From contig JAFSFB010000012.1 in NCBI GenBank assembly GCA_017435385.1, forward strand, positions 1 to 64,000: a DNA stretch of 64,000 bases. Reading direction: 5' to 3'. Both the position numbers and the translations under genes were made by a program. The notes beneath the pieces were generated by a model. That model was not told where the DNA came from. It worked only from the letters and a program-made list of their open reading frames with translations, and did no database searches. Below, in pieces: positions 13,032-64,000 of this stretch. Positions within the stretch are counted from its first letter, which is position 1, and the number at the start of each line of letters is the position of its first letter. The DNA comes from Clostridia bacterium (GTDB taxonomy: Bacteria > Bacillota > Clostridia > Oscillospirales > Acutalibacteraceae).

Positions 13032-14027
13032 ATGAAAAGCAATAAAATCGTCGCAGCCGTTGCCGCCTTTGCCGTTATATTCACGGCGGTTGCATGCGTG
13101 CTTGTTTACAAATATGTAAAAGAAAATCAGAGTCCCGTTCCCGAAGTTCAATCAACAACAGCTTATCAGGAGGAAACCGCAGATGTTTTCCTGCCCGTAA
13201 CGGAGCTTCCGTCTGTTTCTCAGACTCTGCCCGTTCCGAGCGAGAGTGAAACGCTTCTTTCCTCTGAGCCTTCAACCGCTCAGACATCGGAAAATGTTTC
13301 CGTCAGCGAAAAGGTAACCCAGATAGTTCAGACAACGAACAAGGCGTTCAGAGAAGTTTTCAAAATGCCTTCCGCACCGAAGTATGTTCCGCCCGATGCC
13401 GACATTGACTTTGAAACGGCAAAGGTCCTTTCTTATAAATATGACCCTGACGGCGGATATTTCTATACCGACGACAAAAACTGCTGGCAGCAGAATTTCG
13501 GCTTCAACGAGGGCTATGACAGCATGGCTCCTCTCGGCATGATGAACTATGACACAGTCAGAGTCAAGTTTGAATATGACAACAAGGAATGGCTCATCCA
13601 GATGTGGAAGGGACAGTACGGCTATGCGTTTGTCGGCGGTGAGGTCGGCGTTTATACGAGAAAGATCGGAGCAAGCGGAACTCATTACAACTGCGCCAAA
13701 GAAGAGGACTGGCTCAACATGGAAATGGCGTTTATCTGGGACAGAAGCCATAACGGCAATTATCAGACGATATTCACGAGGGATTACACTCAGTATTGGT
13801 GGTGCACGGGCTTTGTTCCCGGTCTTGAAACGGGTTCGCCGAGAGATCAGTTCAGACTCATTACACACATCACCTTTGAGTCACCCGAAATGGCGGAGCT
13901 TTTCTGCTCAGAGTTTGAAAAGCACGGCTTCCGCAGAGTTGCAAAGCTCAACAACAGCGAGATCGACACCTTCGTTCAGGTCGGAGCGGATGTTGCTTTC
14001 GTATGGCAGAATATAGTGCATAATTAA
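13032..14027 (+). CDS. Membrane-anchored DUF4474 domain protein
   Basis: A 331-residue protein with an N-terminal membrane segment (about residues 5-25), a ~95-residue Ser/Thr/Glu/Pro-rich linker and a C-terminal DUF4474 domain. The domain is recognised from K-Y-D-P-D-G-G-Y-F-Y-T-D-D, the C-W-Q-x-N-F-G-F-N-E-x-Y-D stretch, then WLIQMWKGQYG and QYWWCTGFVPG. DUF4474 has no known function; it occurs in Clostridia as a secreted domain. AGGAG precedes ATG 13032. Its neighbour at 12173 is also anchored, which suggests a joint extracellular role. Confidence 0.8.
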   Translation: MKSNKIVAAVAAFAVIFTAVACVLVYKYVKENQSPVPEVQSTTAYQEETADVFLPVTELPSVSQTLPVPSESETLLSSEPSTAQTSENVSVSEKVTQIVQTTNKAFREVFKMPSAPKYVPPDADIDFETAKVLSYKYDPDGGYFYTDDKNCWQQNFGFNEGYDSMAPLGMMNYDTVRVKFEYDNKEWLIQMWKGQYGYAFVGGEVGVYTRKIGASGTHYNCAKEEDWLNMEMAFIWDRSHNGNYQTIFTRDYTQYWWCTGFVPGLETGSPRDQFRLITHITFESPEMAELFCSEFEKHGFRRVAKLNNSEIDTFVQVGADVAFVWQNIVHN

Positions 14028-58822: not shown

Positions 58823-58856
58823 GGAGCAGTACGGAAAACCCGTACTGCTCCTTTTA
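58823..58856. terminator. Bidirectional terminator at the phage-module border
   Basis: GGAGCAGTACGG and CCGTACTGCTCC form a 12-bp stem with A and T tracts, between the nitroreductase gene and the reverse-strand phage genes. Confidence 0.9.
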
Positions 58857-58858
58857 TT

Positions 58859-59701
58859 TTATCTGAAGGCTATGTATCTGTATGATGTGCCGCCCTCGTT
58901 GAGAAGCGGATAACAGCCTTTCGATGACGATGTTGTGCTGTTAATGACCTTAAAGCCCGAATCCGTCACTTCAACTCCGTACGAATGCCCGTTCTCGGCA
59001 GCGATTCCGTAATAGATGTAACATTTCTGTGCCGCAAAATCGATATAATAGACCGGCAGATTCTGCCCTATTACAACAACAAGCCTCGGTCTGAAGCCGA
59101 GATTGACAGAATATGACGAATTGCCTCTCCCCGTATACGAGCCCGATTCCACGGGCTGTTGAAGATATTCGAGCTGCTGCGCCGAAAGGTGAATGCTTTC
59201 ATCCTTTATGTGAGAAGCGCAAAACAGCTCCTTCCCGAGAAACGACGGCATATCGACCGACGAGCCGTCTGCAGGACAGAGAGAAGCGATAACCTTCGCC
59301 CATGCGGTCAGCACGAAAGCGTCCGTATCTCTGTCGGAAACTATGCTGTCACAGCCCGAAGATTCGATGTTCAGCGACGAATCGAAGGTCAGACAGTCAA
59401 TGATATCCGTAAACGCATCGTGGCACGCCGCACCGCCCGAAGAAAACGGAGCGTGAATAGAGAAGCGGAGTGTAATATTGACCTGCCTGCAATTCTCGTT
59501 TTCAACAAGCACCCCCTCGTCATTCTCGACGAAGGAATCAACGATCGTCATGCTGTCGATGCCGACGGCAACGGTCGTATTGCGAAGCGGAACCTCCTTC
59601 TTGATTGCGGGATATTCCGTAAGGAACTTGATATATTCAAGCTCGTCCCTTTCTTTAAGCCATGCCACGATATTGGCAGGCATTGAGCTGATTGCGCTCA
59701 T
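58859..59701 (-). CDS. Phage protein with a receptor-binding-like C-terminal domain
   Basis: A 280-residue protein, the last gene of the reverse-strand phage cluster. The N-terminal ~165 residues resemble phage minor capsid or tail-terminator proteins (I-V-A-W-L-K, then V-A-V-G-I-D, L-R-F-S-I-H-A-P-F-S-S-G-G, D-A-F-T-D-I-I-D-C-L). The C-terminal ~95 residues look like a fibre-tip beta domain (G-S-Y-T-G-R-G, L-G-F-R-P-R-L-V-V-V-I-G, V-T-D-S-G-F-K-V, then L-N-E-G-G-T-S-Y-R-Y-I-A-F-R). Having both in one chain is unusual. GGAGAG precedes the ATG. Family calls here are by pattern only. Confidence 0.6.
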   Translation of the reverse strand: MSAISSMPANIVAWLKERDELEYIKFLTEYPAIKKEVPLRNTTVAVGIDSMTIVDSFVENDEGVLVENENCRQVNITLRFSIHAPFSSGGAACHDAFTDIIDCLTFDSSLNIESSGCDSIVSDRDTDAFVLTAWAKVIASLCPADGSSVDMPSFLGKELFCASHIKDESIHLSAQQLEYLQQPVESGSYTGRGNSSYSVNLGFRPRLVVVIGQNLPVYYIDFAAQKCYIYYGIAAENGHSYGVEVTDSGFKVINSTTSSSKGCYPLLNEGGTSYRYIAFR

Positions 59702-59718
59702 AGCTCACATCTCTCCTT

Positions 59719-60054
59719 TCAGTTGTTCTCAACGATAACTCTGATTACCGCCCAGATATAGAAAGCTTCATTTCCTTTATATACCTTTTCGGCTCTGTCG
59801 ATTCTGTACCTTTCGCCCTGACAGCTAACATATTCGCCGTTTTCAAGCTGGGTGAGATCGGGGTCGGGAGGTCCTATGTAAAGATAGTGTCCCTGAGAGT
59901 TATAACCGATCTCCGTGTTGACGCCGTAAAGATACATTTTGTTTTTATAACGCAGAGGGCTTATAAAAGCGTTCATCTCCGCCAATTTTTCTCCGTCCCT
60001 TGAAATCAGAGCCGTTCTGCGGCCGAACCTTCCGAGAATGGATGAAAAGGTCAT
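59719..60054 (-). CDS. Phage head-tail joining-like protein
   Basis: A 111-residue protein in the position of a head-closure or joining protein, two genes after the major capsid protein. Start F-S-S-I-L-G-R-F-G-R-R, then a beta-rich body with Y-V-S-C-Q-G-E-R-Y-R-I-D-R-A. Its ATG overlaps the previous stop (ATGA), so translation is coupled. No family is certain. Confidence 0.6.
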   Translation of the reverse strand: MTFSSILGRFGRRTALISRDGEKLAEMNAFISPLRYKNKMYLYGVNTEIGYNSQGHYLYIGPPDPDLTQLENGEYVSCQGERYRIDRAEKVYKGNEAFYIWAVIRVIVENN

Positions 60055-60416
60055 ATGCTCACCTGCCTGAACAGAAACTCATCGTCCCTGAGAAGTCCGA
60101 GAGCGGCAATGATCGCCTGCGATTTTTCTTTCTCCGCATTCTCGGCAAGTGCCGACGGAGAAATGCTGACCGTCACGTCGCCCGCCTTGAAAGAGGTTAT
60201 ACCCTCATCCGTATGCAGCCGTTTTATACACAGCCTGTAATTTGCGATTGCGGCGGCGGCATTGATGAGCCTTATGTCGGAACAGTCCGCATTCGGTTTC
60301 ACCCTCGCCGAAAGCTCTCTCGCCGAAGCCTCGCAGATCGGTATAAGCTCGGAATCGGGCTCGTTGTATGAATAATATTCTCTCAATGCCGAGAGAACTC
60401 TCCAGCAGTCAATCAA
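60051..60416 (-). CDS. Phage head-tail connector-like protein
   Basis: A 121-residue, mostly helical protein next to the major capsid gene, the usual place of a gp6-like connector (L-I-D-C-W-R-V-L-S-A-L, A-A-A-A-I-A-N-Y-R). I place the start at TTG 60416, with AAAGGAG 8 bases upstream; the longer frame from 60530 would overlap the capsid gene by ~100 bases. Confidence 0.65.
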   Translation of the reverse strand: MIDCWRVLSALREYYSYNEPDSELIPICEASARELSARVKPNADCSDIRLINAAAAIANYRLCIKRLHTDEGITSFKAGDVTVSISPSALAENAEKEKSQAIIAALGLLRDDEFLFRQVSI

Positions 60417-60429
60417 GAATGTCACTCCT

Positions 60430-61434
60430 TTAAACGGAAAGCACCTTCGATGCGCCGTCAAAAATCTTTGCAAAGCCTGCCGTGCAGCTGATAACGGCTC
60501 TTTCGAGCTGACGGTCAATGAGCTTGTCATATTCGGTCATGATGTCGCCCGTCTTGACCATCTCGAGAGCCGCACTCTTGTCAAGACCGATAAGAGTGCC
60601 CGTGTTGACTGCGGAAGATTTGAGAAGCTTTGCGCCAAGAGGAGTTATCTCCTTGCCGCTGCCGTGGAAGTTAAGACCTGCAGAAGCATCTCTGAACTCT
60701 TCCATTTTGAGAAGCTTTGCCATAATTGCAGGCTCGGCAATAACCGTGTTGAGCTCGTAGGGATCGAAGCTGTTCCAGAAATCGACAAGATCGGAATATG
60801 CAAGCGTTCCTGAAGTCGCACAGCTCATGACTTCGGCAGGATTGCCGTTGCCGTCACCGTTTTCGATAACCTCGATGGCATCCTTGAGAAGAGTTCTTGC
60901 GATATATGCGCCGATCTGGCGGAGAGTCACCGTAAAGAGGTCAAGACGCTGGAATCTGATCGCCTCATAGGAAGCAACGAGAGAGCGGCCTCTCTTGCGA
61001 AGTCTGACAAGGTTTTCCTTTGTTCTGATATTCGTTTCGGGGATAAACGCACCCTCACTCACGATTTTAAGCTCCTTCTCTTCATCCGTGGGAAGAGATG
61101 TGATCGAGCGGTAATCAAGACCGTCGAAAACAGTCGTTGATGCTACGACCGTGGGAAGAATATCCGCCTGCTCAAGTCCCTGTCTTACGGCTCTCGAAAC
61201 ATATTCGGGGAAAAGCACGGCGCTGTCCGAGGTCTTGAAAAACTTGTCAACAACGTCGCTGCCTGCGCCGCCGACCTTGATGCCGAAGCGTTTGAGCTGA
61301 CGCTGATATGCGTCAAGTCCCTCAAGAGAAGTGCCCTTATAGTTTTCGCTGGGATCGATGCTCTCAAGAGCCTTTGTGAAATTACCTGAGGCATAGAGCC
61401 CCTTTTCAAGTTTGATATTGTCAAAATCAGCCAT
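60430..61434 (-). CDS. Phage major capsid protein, HK97-like
   Basis: A 334-residue protein recognised as an HK97-fold capsid protein: a helical N-terminal arm (~1-60), then V-L-F-P-E-Y-V-S-R-A-V-R-Q-G, the P- and A-domain-type strands, T-L-R-Q-I-G-A-Y-I-A-R, D-F-W-N-S-F-D-P-Y-E-L-N-T-V-I-A, and L-I-G-L-D-K-S-A-A-L-E near the end. AAAGGAG precedes the ATG. A separate scaffold is not seen; the adjacent protease protein may include it. Confidence 0.85.
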   Translation of the reverse strand: MADFDNIKLEKGLYASGNFTKALESIDPSENYKGTSLEGLDAYQRQLKRFGIKVGGAGSDVVDKFFKTSDSAVLFPEYVSRAVRQGLEQADILPTVVASTTVFDGLDYRSITSLPTDEEKELKIVSEGAFIPETNIRTKENLVRLRKRGRSLVASYEAIRFQRLDLFTVTLRQIGAYIARTLLKDAIEVIENGDGNGNPAEVMSCATSGTLAYSDLVDFWNSFDPYELNTVIAEPAIMAKLLKMEEFRDASAGLNFHGSGKEITPLGAKLLKSSAVNTGTLIGLDKSAALEMVKTGDIMTEYDKLIDRQLERAVISCTAGFAKIFDGASKVLSV

Positions 61435-61452
61435 TGTTTCTGTTCTCCTTTC

Positions 61453-61788
61453 TTACATCAGAAATGTGACGGTGCTTTCGTTTTCGTCAACGGAAATAAC
61501 GAGATATTCTCTTTCTCCGCCCGCCTTGACACCGTCTGCGGATGCGGCAAGCTTGGTATAGCCGAGCTCAGGTGCCGTGCCGCTGAATTTTGCGGTTACC
61601 TCACCGTAGATCTGAACTGCCGCATACTGTCCGTCGCCGTTTGCAAGGATGCCGCAGAAGGCTTCGCCGTCTGCGCAGGCGGAAACCGTAGCGTTATCCG
61701 AGATCTTCACGGGAGTACCCTTTGCGATTTCTTCTGTTGTTCTGAATGTTGCGGTTTCGTTATGGAAGCCGCCGAATGATACTGACAT
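61453..61788 (-). CDS. Phage capsid decoration-like protein
   Basis: A 111-residue beta-rich protein between protease and capsid genes (A-K-G-T-P-V-K-I-S-D-N-A-T-V, F-C-G-I-L-A-N-G-D, A-A-V-Q-I-Y-G), the place and pattern of small head decoration proteins. AGGAGG precedes the ATG. Confidence 0.7.
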   Translation of the reverse strand: MSVSFGGFHNETATFRTTEEIAKGTPVKISDNATVSACADGEAFCGILANGDGQYAAVQIYGEVTAKFSGTAPELGYTKLAASADGVKAGGEREYLVISVDENESTVTFLM

Positions 61789-61800
61789 ATTTTTTCCTCC

Positions 61801-62661
61801 TTAAATTTTATATTCGGAATTTGATTCCTCATTTGTGTCATGCGTGCAGTCGAGCTGTCTGACAAGGGGAAGATTCTTTTCCGCCTTCTGCCTGAAAGCA
61901 TCACGCATTTCTCTGAGCTTTCCGATACTCAGAGCGCCGCAGATATCTTCGATCAGAGAGCTTTTCAGCTCGGGCATGACCGAGCCTGCATCTCTGAGGA
62001 GAGATGCCTTGAGCTCCTCTCTGTATTCCTCCGCCCAACGCTCCGCTTCCGCCGAAGCTTTTGAGGGAACGAAAGCCTTGATGACACCTGCGTTTTTCTG
62101 GGCGGGAACGGCAACGAACGACCATTCATACGCATCCGTCGGGTCTTCGAGCAGGAAGCTGCAGAGCTTACCGCCGTAAACCTTGCCCTTCTGATGCTCG
62201 CAGCCCTCGCTCTTGATGTTCTTGCCGCAAATCGAACAGCTTATCGTTCTGACACAGCAGCCGACGCTCGTTTCCTTCTTGATTCCCGCTTCGATTTCGG
62301 CGATGAGATCCTTGTTCTTTTCGGTCCTCACCATATAAGCCTTTGCCTTGATATAGCAGTAGGGCTCGCCGTGACTTGTTTTGCGTGATTCGTCGGTCAC
62401 AAACTCGGTTGCATAAATTCTTGCGTTCTGATCCTTGCTGCTCATGTTATGGTCAAAAATACCCGTTTTGCCGACAAAAAGCTCCGCAAGGGTTTTAAGC
62501 GCAGGAACCGTAAACCTTTCGTTATCTCTGTCGATCTCGTTATCGCAAAGGATAACGGAAAAGGTATATATTTCATCCTGCGAAAGTTCTTTTCTTGCGA
62601 ACTTCCCGATGAGTCTGAGTTCCTCCTCGGGAAGAATTGCAGAGTTGTTTTCCGTTTTCAT
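61801..62661 (-). CDS. Phage prohead protease/scaffold-like protein
   Basis: A 286-residue protein between portal and decoration genes. The N-terminal half has protease features of the HK97/herpes type: F-D-H-N-M-S-S, K-K-E-T-S-V-G-C and A-Y-E-W-S-F-V-A-V-P-A-Q, with an inserted four-ligand cysteine cluster (C-S-I-C and C-E-H). The C-terminal ~90 residues are charged and helical, as in scaffold parts. The ATG at 62661 is best spaced from GAGAGG. Its start overlaps the portal stop. Confidence 0.72.
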   Translation of the reverse strand: MKTENNSAILPEEELRLIGKFARKELSQDEIYTFSVILCDNEIDRDNERFTVPALKTLAELFVGKTGIFDHNMSSKDQNARIYATEFVTDESRKTSHGEPYCYIKAKAYMVRTEKNKDLIAEIEAGIKKETSVGCCVRTISCSICGKNIKSEGCEHQKGKVYGGKLCSFLLEDPTDAYEWSFVAVPAQKNAGVIKAFVPSKASAEAERWAEEYREELKASLLRDAGSVMPELKSSLIEDICGALSIGKLREMRDAFRQKAEKNLPLVRQLDCTHDTNEESNSEYKI

Positions 62662-62663
62662 AA

Positions 62664-63809
62664 TCATTCACCTCTCTTTTTATTTTCGCTCTCGAGCTTT
62701 TCAGCCTGAGCGTTATAAAGTCTTGCTCTTGAAAGCTCGACCTCATCCTGAAGGGTTATGTTTTCCCACACAATTTCGGGGCTGCAGCCGAAGCCTCTGC
62801 TTCTGAGAAAAGCCGTGCAGATCTTTCTGATAACGGGCGTCAGAATATGTCTGTATGCCTCCAGCTCGCTCGTGAGAACATCCGCCTGCTGAGAGCTCAT
62901 CCTCTCCGTGCTTGACCACGAAAGACCGAGCATGAAGGGCGGAAGTCCCGTTTTTGCCACGATCTGTTCAAGCATCTGGCGAACGGGTATCTCGCTGTCG
63001 AGGATCTGATTATCTGCCCCGATAACCTTTATCTGAACATCTCCGACTGCAACGAAATCCTTGATTTCCGAGCCGCTCTGCATCGCTTCGCCCCATTCCC
63101 TTGCAACCTGCATGGCTCTGTCCTTGGCGTATGCTCTGTCCATGACATCGTTGCGGGGATTATAGGTTACAGCGAAGCGGAGATTGCCGACTCTGTCCCA
63201 GTTTGCACCGATGCTCTCGAAAATCCTGAGCAGAATGCCGCTGACAAACGGCATCCCTTTGAGCAGGGAATTGCCTGTGAGCGAGCCTGCATCGGGATTG
63301 AGCACGCTCAGAAGACAAAGCTCCTGACGGGGAGCCTTTACAAGCTCTGCACCCTTTCGGACAAAGATCTCAACATCAAAGCCGTTCTGCGCCCTTTTGA
63401 GCTCGATTCCGTCAAGCGGAGCGTTGAAAAGCGCACACGGCTGACCGTCAGCATCCGTCACGATCTCTCCGACCGCAGTGCCGAAGGTCAGAAGCTGTTC
63501 AAAATAAGTCGAAACAAACGCCGGTATTCCCTGTCTGTTGCCGCCGACGGGAACGGTTTCGAGAAACTCTTTCAGAGCCTCACGGGCTCTTTCATCGGAG
63601 CATTCAACCGTAAATCCGCCCGTCAGACGAACGAGCTTGAACACAGCCGCATCGATAACGGGAACGGCTTCTCTGAGTGCTTTATAAAGCCTCATGCTCG
63701 GCGCACCGAGAGGCACATATCCGTCGATGATGCCGAAGGGATGTCTGTTCATGTTCTGAGTCACGGGAGCCGAAACCCTTCCGGGCTTTCTGCTTTTAAA
63801 TAAACCCAT
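62664..63809 (-). CDS. Phage portal protein
   Basis: A 381-residue protein with portal pattern: M-R-L-Y-K-A-L-R-E-A-V-P-V-I-D-A-A-V, D-A-G-S-L-T-G-N-S-L-L-K, D-R-V-G-N-L-R-F-A-V-T-Y, T-G-L-P-P-F-M-L-G-L-S, and R-M-S-S-Q-Q-A-D. It forms the ring through which DNA enters the head. It overlaps the terminase end by 14 bases and the protease start. Confidence 0.88.
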   Translation of the reverse strand: MGLFKSRKPGRVSAPVTQNMNRHPFGIIDGYVPLGAPSMRLYKALREAVPVIDAAVFKLVRLTGGFTVECSDERAREALKEFLETVPVGGNRQGIPAFVSTYFEQLLTFGTAVGEIVTDADGQPCALFNAPLDGIELKRAQNGFDVEIFVRKGAELVKAPRQELCLLSVLNPDAGSLTGNSLLKGMPFVSGILLRIFESIGANWDRVGNLRFAVTYNPRNDVMDRAYAKDRAMQVAREWGEAMQSGSEIKDFVAVGDVQIKVIGADNQILDSEIPVRQMLEQIVAKTGLPPFMLGLSWSSTERMSSQQADVLTSELEAYRHILTPVIRKICTAFLRSRGFGCSPEIVWENITLQDEVELSRARLYNAQAEKLESENKKRGE

Positions 63810-64000
63810 CCGATTCCTCCTTTCTTCTTGTTGCCGCCACAGCGAAAAATCCGTCGTCGCATCCGTCGGTTATAACAGTCGACACGAAATAACGGATATC
63901 GTCCATGGCATGGTCATTTTCTTTTCTGACCGAATCCTTTGCGGAGTTTTCCTCCCATCTGTAAAGTCCGAATTCTCTGATGCTGTCCCTGCATACGGGC
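63796..64000 (-). CDS. Phage terminase large subunit, C-terminal end (partial)
   Basis: Only the last 67 residues are in the window. The sequence F-G-L-Y-R-W-E-E-N, then K-E-N-D-H-A-M-D-D-I-R-Y-F-V, is the terminal nuclease-domain pattern of terminase large subunits. The stop lies inside the portal gene, in another frame. The rest lies beyond base 64000. Confidence 0.85.
   Translation of the reverse strand, partial: PVCRDSIREFGLYRWEENSAKDSVRKENDHAMDDIRYFVSTVITDGCDDGFFAVAATRRKEESDGFI

Follow-up and report, generated by a model that had tools for sequence, protein, structure and literature searches.

A tail-free phage head gene cluster in Clostridia carries a fibre tip on its neck protein and may act as a reduced gene transfer agent

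We find that a 64,000-nucleotide stretch of a Clostridia bacterium genome (Oscillospirales; Acutalibacteraceae; GCA_017435385.1), here called the window and corresponding to positions 1-64000 of the 191,010-base contig JAFSFB010000012.1, ends inside a cluster of phage head genes with no tail genes beside it and with a last gene that joins a tail terminator to a fibre tip. The cluster spans 6.7 kb and holds nine intact genes on the reverse strand, from window position 58859 to contig position 65573, in a genome of 2.55 Mb in 26 contigs. We consider it probable, though well short of certain, that it encodes a domesticated, vertically inherited DNA-packaging head, descended from a contractile-tailed phage with the gene order of PBSX, that would work as a gene transfer agent (GTA) of which only the head and neck are left. 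The structure, conservation and history of the element are well supported by sequence comparison; the packaging, release, binding and transfer of DNA are what we infer from them. The features are as follows, from the 5′ end of the cluster to its 3′ end.

Contig 65091-65573 (outside the window), reverse strand: terS-like gene, 160 residues, upstream of terL
63796-64000, reverse strand: 3′ end of terL, large terminase (full gene 63796-65094, TTG start, 432 residues; E = 4.9e-8 for the window end)
62664-63809, reverse strand: portal, 381 residues (phrog_30703, E = 2.9e-135; Pfam Phage_portal, E = 1.2e-6, under the curated cut-off)
61801-62667, reverse strand: prohead protease/scaffold-like protein, 288 residues, with a Cys-rich (zinc-like) insertion (phrog_16951, E = 3.1e-102, a family without a function name)
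61453-61788, reverse strand: decoration-like protein, 111 residues (phrog_4588, virion structural, E = 2e-22)
60430-61434, reverse strand: major capsid protein, 334 residues (phrog_3922, E = 2.7e-97; Pfam PF25209, Phage_capsid_4, E = 1.1e-14)
60051-60416, reverse strand: head-tail adaptor-like protein, 121 residues, TTG start behind an AGGAG site (named from position and conservation across loci; weak phrog_541 match, E = 0.099)
59719-60054, reverse strand: stopper (head closure), 111 residues (AlphaFold model and structural matches)
59252-59701, reverse strand: tail terminator, domain 1 (residues 1-150) of the 280-residue last protein (VIA-align and Foldseek)
58859-59224, reverse strand: fibre-tip/adhesin-like domain 2 (residues 160-280) of the same protein (sequence homology to a free fibre of about 155 residues)
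58823-58851, no strand (bidirectional match): hairpin terminator behind the cluster

An AlphaFold model of the 280-residue protein, built from 16 relatives, reveals two domains connected by a low-confidence linker (predicted local distance difference test score, pLDDT, 75; predicted template modelling score, pTM, 0.44). The terminator fold spans the first 141 residues, and domain 1 superimposes on lambda gpU (3fz2) with a VIA-align Z of 12.4 and a root-mean-square deviation (rmsd) of 3.1 over 122 residues, on the pyocin R2 collar with Z 12.1, and on the terminator of the Rhodobacter capsulatus GTA (RcGTA; 6tba_4A) with Z 11.6. Domain 2 is homologous to the free fibre encoded at the end of the full operon in other genera (L096 fibre against the fused protein, blastp E = 1.8e-9). 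The alignment shows that the fusion retains the fibre from about the 'SH..xxIHLS' stretch onward and lacks its first ~30 residues, which we take to be the baseplate-binding part. As the terminator of the last gene runs directly into the fibre-tip domain with which the full operon closes elsewhere, the tail was apparently deleted between the two; the simplest account of the sequences would be a single deletion that took out the genes for tube, hub and baseplate and left terminator and tip fused. All 10 near-complete genomes of the window's genus carry the fused gene unbroken and at full length, with no second full copy, the only other match being a weak one of 43 residues in G016 (E = 0.0017). 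In the phylogeny described below, a single fusion clade comprises 27 leaves (support 0.86), of which two are cut by contig ends before the fusion gene, and three further fusion loci (L088, L105, L131) fall outside it.

Substitution patterns indicate that all nine genes of the cluster are under strong purifying selection. Median ratios of nonsynonymous to synonymous substitution rates (dN/dS) over 16 chosen pairs, with pairs of dS ≥2 or undefined dS excluded, are 0.039 for the capsid and for the terminator domain, 0.063 for terL, 0.068 for the stopper, 0.074 for the portal, 0.086 for the protease/scaffold-like protein, 0.090 for terS, 0.103 for the adaptor, 0.179 for the decoration protein and 0.213 for the fibre tip, compared to 0.044 for the neighbouring gene mgtE. 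The fibre tip is the fastest-evolving part of the element and is still constrained, the pattern expected of a receptor-binding part. For lineages that lack the fibre tip, the case for selection comes from low nonsynonymous divergence (pN) only, because synonymous sites are saturated (pS up to 0.88). Key motif residues of terL, which we take to be the Walker A, Walker B, coupling and nuclease motifs, are each kept in 119-120 of 120 loci, and His73 and Ser134 of the protease/scaffold-like protein, a putative catalytic pair, are invariant in 17 of 17 relatives.

The cluster seems to have been inherited mostly vertically, as judged from one tree method with a midpoint root and without a species tree. 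A FastTree phylogeny of terL, portal and capsid recovers as monophyletic 18 of the 20 genera that have more than one locus, compared to a mean of 0.14 and a maximum of 2 when labels are shuffled (19 of the 20 genera permuted). Baseplate presence requires 12 parsimony changes on this tree, against a shuffled mean of 36, with loci that have <8 kb downstream scored as state unknown, L002 excepted. The chromosomal surroundings point the same way for the window's genus, where mgtE lies upstream of the cluster, as it does at L085, L088, L111 and L158; three of these (L085, L111, L158) retain a baseplate. A site common to the window's genus and some related genera argues for loss of the tail and baseplate genes in place. 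A second conserved site, directly upstream of HflX, is occupied by the operon in a separate clade (L090-L096, L123, L124, L142, L146, L155, L159, L162).

The tail states of relatives were classified from stretches around the capsid gene, mostly of 20 kb and from many genera, with gene content assigned by iterated profiles. The tree and class counts cover 120 of 129 classified loci, leaving out L165-L170 (viral, phage and plasmid records), L102 and L183 (no portal or terL found) and L160 (no terL found); L077 and L083 come from the same genome, which is thus counted twice, and L062 and L064 are cut by contig ends. Head genes keep the same order in nearly all loci examined. A tail sheath is present in 16 of the 120, a baseplate without a sheath in 45, several of these with a tube domain fused to the stopper or terminator, and a hub only in seven. 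No baseplate and a terminator-fibre fusion, the tail-free version found in the window's genus, characterise 28 loci; 18 have no baseplate and a terminator without a fibre tip, a class that includes six loci in which <8 kb of sequence follows the capsid gene, and two (L125, L191) with a tube-like gene. Six have neither baseplate, terminator nor fusion, two of them cut by contig ends and four with ample flanks. The sheath, hub, baseplate wedge and Baseplate J labels are confirmed by PHROGs and Pfam, and the tube label is based on position, the shared family phrog_27038 (no function) and profiles.

Two variants of the tailed forms stand apart. Among baseplate-bearing loci, a tail-tube-like domain is fused to the stopper in L091, L094, L095 and L155 and to the terminator in L089, L112, L113, L116, L118 and L119; such tube-neck fusions would make a one-ring tail. 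At L101, which has sheath, tube and baseplate, the expected place of the tape measure is taken by a gene of only 96 residues (13442-13732), which implies an extremely short contractile tail.

We find no tail, lysis, integrase or replication gene on either side of the cluster, in the window or on the contig past base 64000, and no tRNA in the window or the following 34 kb. Beyond base 64000 lie the remainder of terL (to 65094) and the terS-like gene, then the divergent mgtE and other chromosomal genes, with glycyl-tRNA synthetase and other housekeeping genes further out; past the hairpin, on the other side, are nitroreductase-like and sugar-metabolism genes (names by reading). The original prediction, made from the window's letters, had described an intact reverse-strand series of terminase, portal, protease/scaffold, decoration, capsid, connector- and joining-like genes and a 280-residue protein, bounded by a terminator and ordinary metabolic genes and free of tail, lysis and integrase genes on that side, and each part of this description holds. 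Nor do searches for baseplate and hub genes find a tail elsewhere in the genus. An alignment search for Baseplate J matches none of 45 genus genomes, compared to 104 of 250 genomes of the family; of the 144 family genomes that have the capsid gene, 78 carry Baseplate J no more than 12 kb away from it, counting only matches with E about 1e-41 or better. Pfam Baseplate_J is absent from 15 tail-free genomes, including the 10 near-complete genus genomes, and matches its controls (G185; E. coli, B. subtilis and Synechococcus among the named ones), and an alignment search for the hub, likewise with matching controls, finds it in 0 of the same 10 genus genomes.

Of the 45 genus genomes, 35, the window's own included, carry a single, intact capsid gene, with 67-100% identity. 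Family-wide an intact gene occurs in 144 of 250 genomes (125 of the 193 near-complete ones) and 80 of 135 genera, with two copies in a single genome, and order-wide in 71 of 394 genomes from several families. On contig C72 of G259 (L102), a second, divergent capsid gene, 46% identical, stands alone without adjoining head genes. Named records with the gene are gut metagenome-assembled genomes (MAGs) of Clostridia, Oscillospiraceae and Ruminococcaceae, and also Pseudoflavonifractor sp. 524-17. A named phage collection yields only unannotated faecal 'Bacteriophage sp.' contigs (53.9-68.3% identical) and weak distant matches, and IMG/VR two matching contigs. The operon is present in the faecal GenBank records MT835508, MT835952 and MT835769 (L168-L170), deposited as 'Bacteriophage sp.', which may be chromosomal pieces or packaged host DNA.

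Among the remaining head proteins, the AlphaFold model of the stopper (pLDDT 84.7) matches the lambda neck (8xow, Z 8.7), RcGTA (6tba_3A, Z 8.4), SPP1 gp16 (7z4w, Z 8.4) and PBSX XkdH (3f3b, Z 7.7) with rmsd 2.6-4.7, and Foldseek alone returns no match for it at E < 0.001. The adaptor most likely starts at TTG 60416 and not at ATG 60530 inside the capsid gene; relatives have the 121-residue form. Run as a profile against PDB chains, the capsid alignment yields no match. At the position of the protease/scaffold-like gene, Tepidibacter has a gene annotated as an XkdF-like protease. Shortly after the putative catalytic Ser134, the window protein and its relatives carry invariant C144, C147, C156, H158 and C169, a cluster looking like a zinc knuckle within a prohead protease. 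Promoter scans of the locus are at chance level (6 found, 5.2 expected), and neither the operon nor its leader gives a match in a search for RNA families. The intergenic region between terS and mgtE (contig 65574-66029; L002 7575-8030) is 376-464 bases long in 13 genus loci and holds in them a strongly conserved block of ~35 bases around CTACTTCGGGG..ATATCGGAACTGCCC, for which Rfam has no match.

In the mechanism that we envisage, the terminase would fill small heads with pieces of the host chromosome and the stopper would close them, while a terminator ring, probably of six copies, would end the particle and show the fibre tips directly on the neck. Particles would be released by cell lysis, through genes outside those found here, and the tips would bind kin cells. 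Entry of DNA is the least certain step, for which handover to the competence machinery of the recipient (ComEC) would be the likeliest route. A more extensive proposal, which we offer tentatively and regard as possible rather than probable, is that across the order a phage head was domesticated and its tail dismantled stepwise, from contractile through a short form with tube-neck fusions and baseplate to none. In the window's lineage, on this view, a deletion would have fused the receptor-binding tip to the neck ring, and the resulting tailless capsule would bind kin cells and hand over host DNA with no tail to inject it.

Several observations weigh against a vertically inherited, GTA-like head. 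In the window's genus the element is known from its genes; packaging of host DNA has been seen in another genus, for the GTA of Faecalibacterium prausnitzii (FpGTA), and the likeness to FpGTA is one of description. The capsid gene is missing from 10 of the 45 genus genomes, two of which are at least 90% complete (G035, 91%; G042, 100%). The loci of genera g56 and g98 do not group into single clades, which shows a degree of horizontal transfer or paralogy, and g98 capsid genes are broken in G613, G568 and G649, by one in-frame stop in two genomes and by a split into short pieces in one. Decay thus occurs elsewhere in the family, and the sequences indicate that the element is being lost in some g98 species. 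Phage_holin_4_1 is not found in 10 genus genomes. ComEC, present in 18 of 18 genomes, is almost universal and so lends the proposed entry route little weight. Finally, the Baseplate J profile used above matches just one of eight f26 genomes, whose operons resemble the description of FpGTA, although FpGTA is reported to have a separate baseplate operon; this single match is weak and need not belong to the element. A strongly diverged second tail or lysis locus may therefore have escaped the searches.

This last point leads to the alternative of a complete short-tailed GTA in two pieces, with the head operon seen here and a diverged tail and lysis operon elsewhere that the searches missed, which we judge unlikely. 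FpGTA is itself reported as two operons about 125 kb apart (PMC12946183), and f26 loci stop after the hub gene, such that the remaining f26 tail genes, if any, must lie elsewhere. The easily detected baseplate in the operons of same-family relatives, the lack of Baseplate J matches in the genus and of hub matches in its near-complete genomes, and the position of the fibre tip on the neck protein itself all argue against it. Less likely again is that the heads do not serve transfer, and that DNA would be packaged for an inner or self-sacrificial use (DNA capture, a decoy or toxin-like lysis), with the adhesin domain a leftover of the deletion. Such a role would suit the loss of tail genes in several lineages, seen as the 12 state changes on the tree, the 18 loci with a tipless terminator and the four well-flanked loci with none of these genes; in the window's clade, however, the tip is intact and, at a median dN/dS of 0.21, constrained despite its speed of evolution.

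The original prediction had also offered a decaying prophage, a capsid-forming satellite and a domesticated particle as readings, and we find that the evidence favours the last, through single-copy presence, purifying selection, vertical inheritance and a conserved neighbourhood. A prophage in decay, with head genes that have survived by chance, would account for the missing tail, integrase, replication and lysis genes and for the capsid breakage in some g98 species, but is contradicted by selection on nine genes, intact single copies in most of the genus, conserved catalytic motifs and a site conserved across genera, and we regard it as highly improbable. A satellite mobilised by a helper phage, to which we give slightly less credence still, would fit the short head-only set and the structural matches of the neck to a Staphylococcus aureus pathogenicity island (SaPI)-like neck (9mu3), but the cluster has no integrase, replication gene or attachment-site tRNA and shows vertical inheritance with shared flanks. 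Relatives do carry the same short head set, and tailed relatives occupy the same chromosomal place; the original prediction had recognised neither these nor the fusion of terminator and fibre tip in the last protein. It had named tail and lysis genes in normal phage order past base 64000 and frameshifts in other strains as findings that would speak against it, and neither is found in the window's genus.

If the domesticated, GTA-like head is the right account, GTA-like particles would be an ancient feature that extends through this family of common gut Clostridia, well beyond Faecalibacterium, many species would retain such a particle without a recognisable tail, and the minimal machinery that makes a DNA-carrying phage head useful to its owner would become a testable question. 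The series from tailed to baseplate only, neck-adhesin fusion and neck only would be a natural experiment, in which a phage is dismantled with its head and packaging motor under selection, and its genes would provide sequence markers for producers of host DNA in gut virus fractions.

Searches of the open PMC library return no paper whose listing points to this broader family, to a series of tail losses or to a fusion of terminator and fibre. The cluster lacks the hallmarks of a satellite like the phage-inducible chromosomal islands, namely an integrase and mobilisation genes of its own. With GTAs it shares phage-derived structural and packaging genes, chromosomal inheritance without integrase or replication genes, and purifying selection. 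A tail is usual in known GTAs, though it is not known to be required by their formal definition. RcGTA, likewise a domesticated head-tail cluster, retains tail and baseplate, which are not found here (no tail genes at the locus; Baseplate J in 0 of 45 genomes, hub in 0 of 10), and the folds of its virion stopper and terminator (6tba_3A, 6tba_4A) match the window proteins, with no sequence relationship detected when PDB chains are searched with a profile of the capsid alignment. PBSX of Bacillus subtilis (xkd operon) has the order XkdF-like protease, capsid, neck, sheath, tube, LysM protein, hub, baseplate J and fibre, and retains a complete contractile tail and lysis genes. This order is that of the full operons in related families, and the window stopper resembles XkdH; a complete contractile tail of this kind (sheath, tube, tape measure, baseplate) is present in relatives and absent at the window locus. 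The 38.8-kb Tepidibacter hydrothermalis phage-plasmid NZ_CP120734 has a capsid 46% identical to that of the window and the same head gene order, but, unlike the window cluster, is a complete contractile-tailed phage with a 797-residue tape measure, a holin and its own plasmid genes. An autonomous element of this type, with PBSX-like order, is the likely ancestor, to judge from its sequence.

FpGTA heads measure roughly 40 nm, contain 8.4-8.9 kb of host DNA and show no identifiable tails, and the operon distant from the head genes encodes baseplate, fibre, receptor-binding and lysis functions (PMC12946183). GTA-like packaging is described there for further Ruminococcaceae and Oscillospiraceae; of four MAGs searched, three gave no operon. 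No homologous operon is reported in Gemmiger or Subdoligranulum, and among the genomes examined the operon is reported from Faecalibacterium alone (PMC12946183). The window version differs in having no detected baseplate or hub and in having a fibre tip fused to the terminator. Both are head operons on the chromosome that include terS, terL, portal, scaffold and capsid genes among others and have no genes for replication, and the host of FpGTA belongs to the related families Ruminococcaceae/Oscillospiraceae. The FpGTA-type layout of about ten genes, with terS first and the capsid mid-operon, is matched, going by its description, by the window's nine genes in 6.7 kb. Likened in this way by description and not by sequence, the element of the window is very probably a relative of FpGTA.

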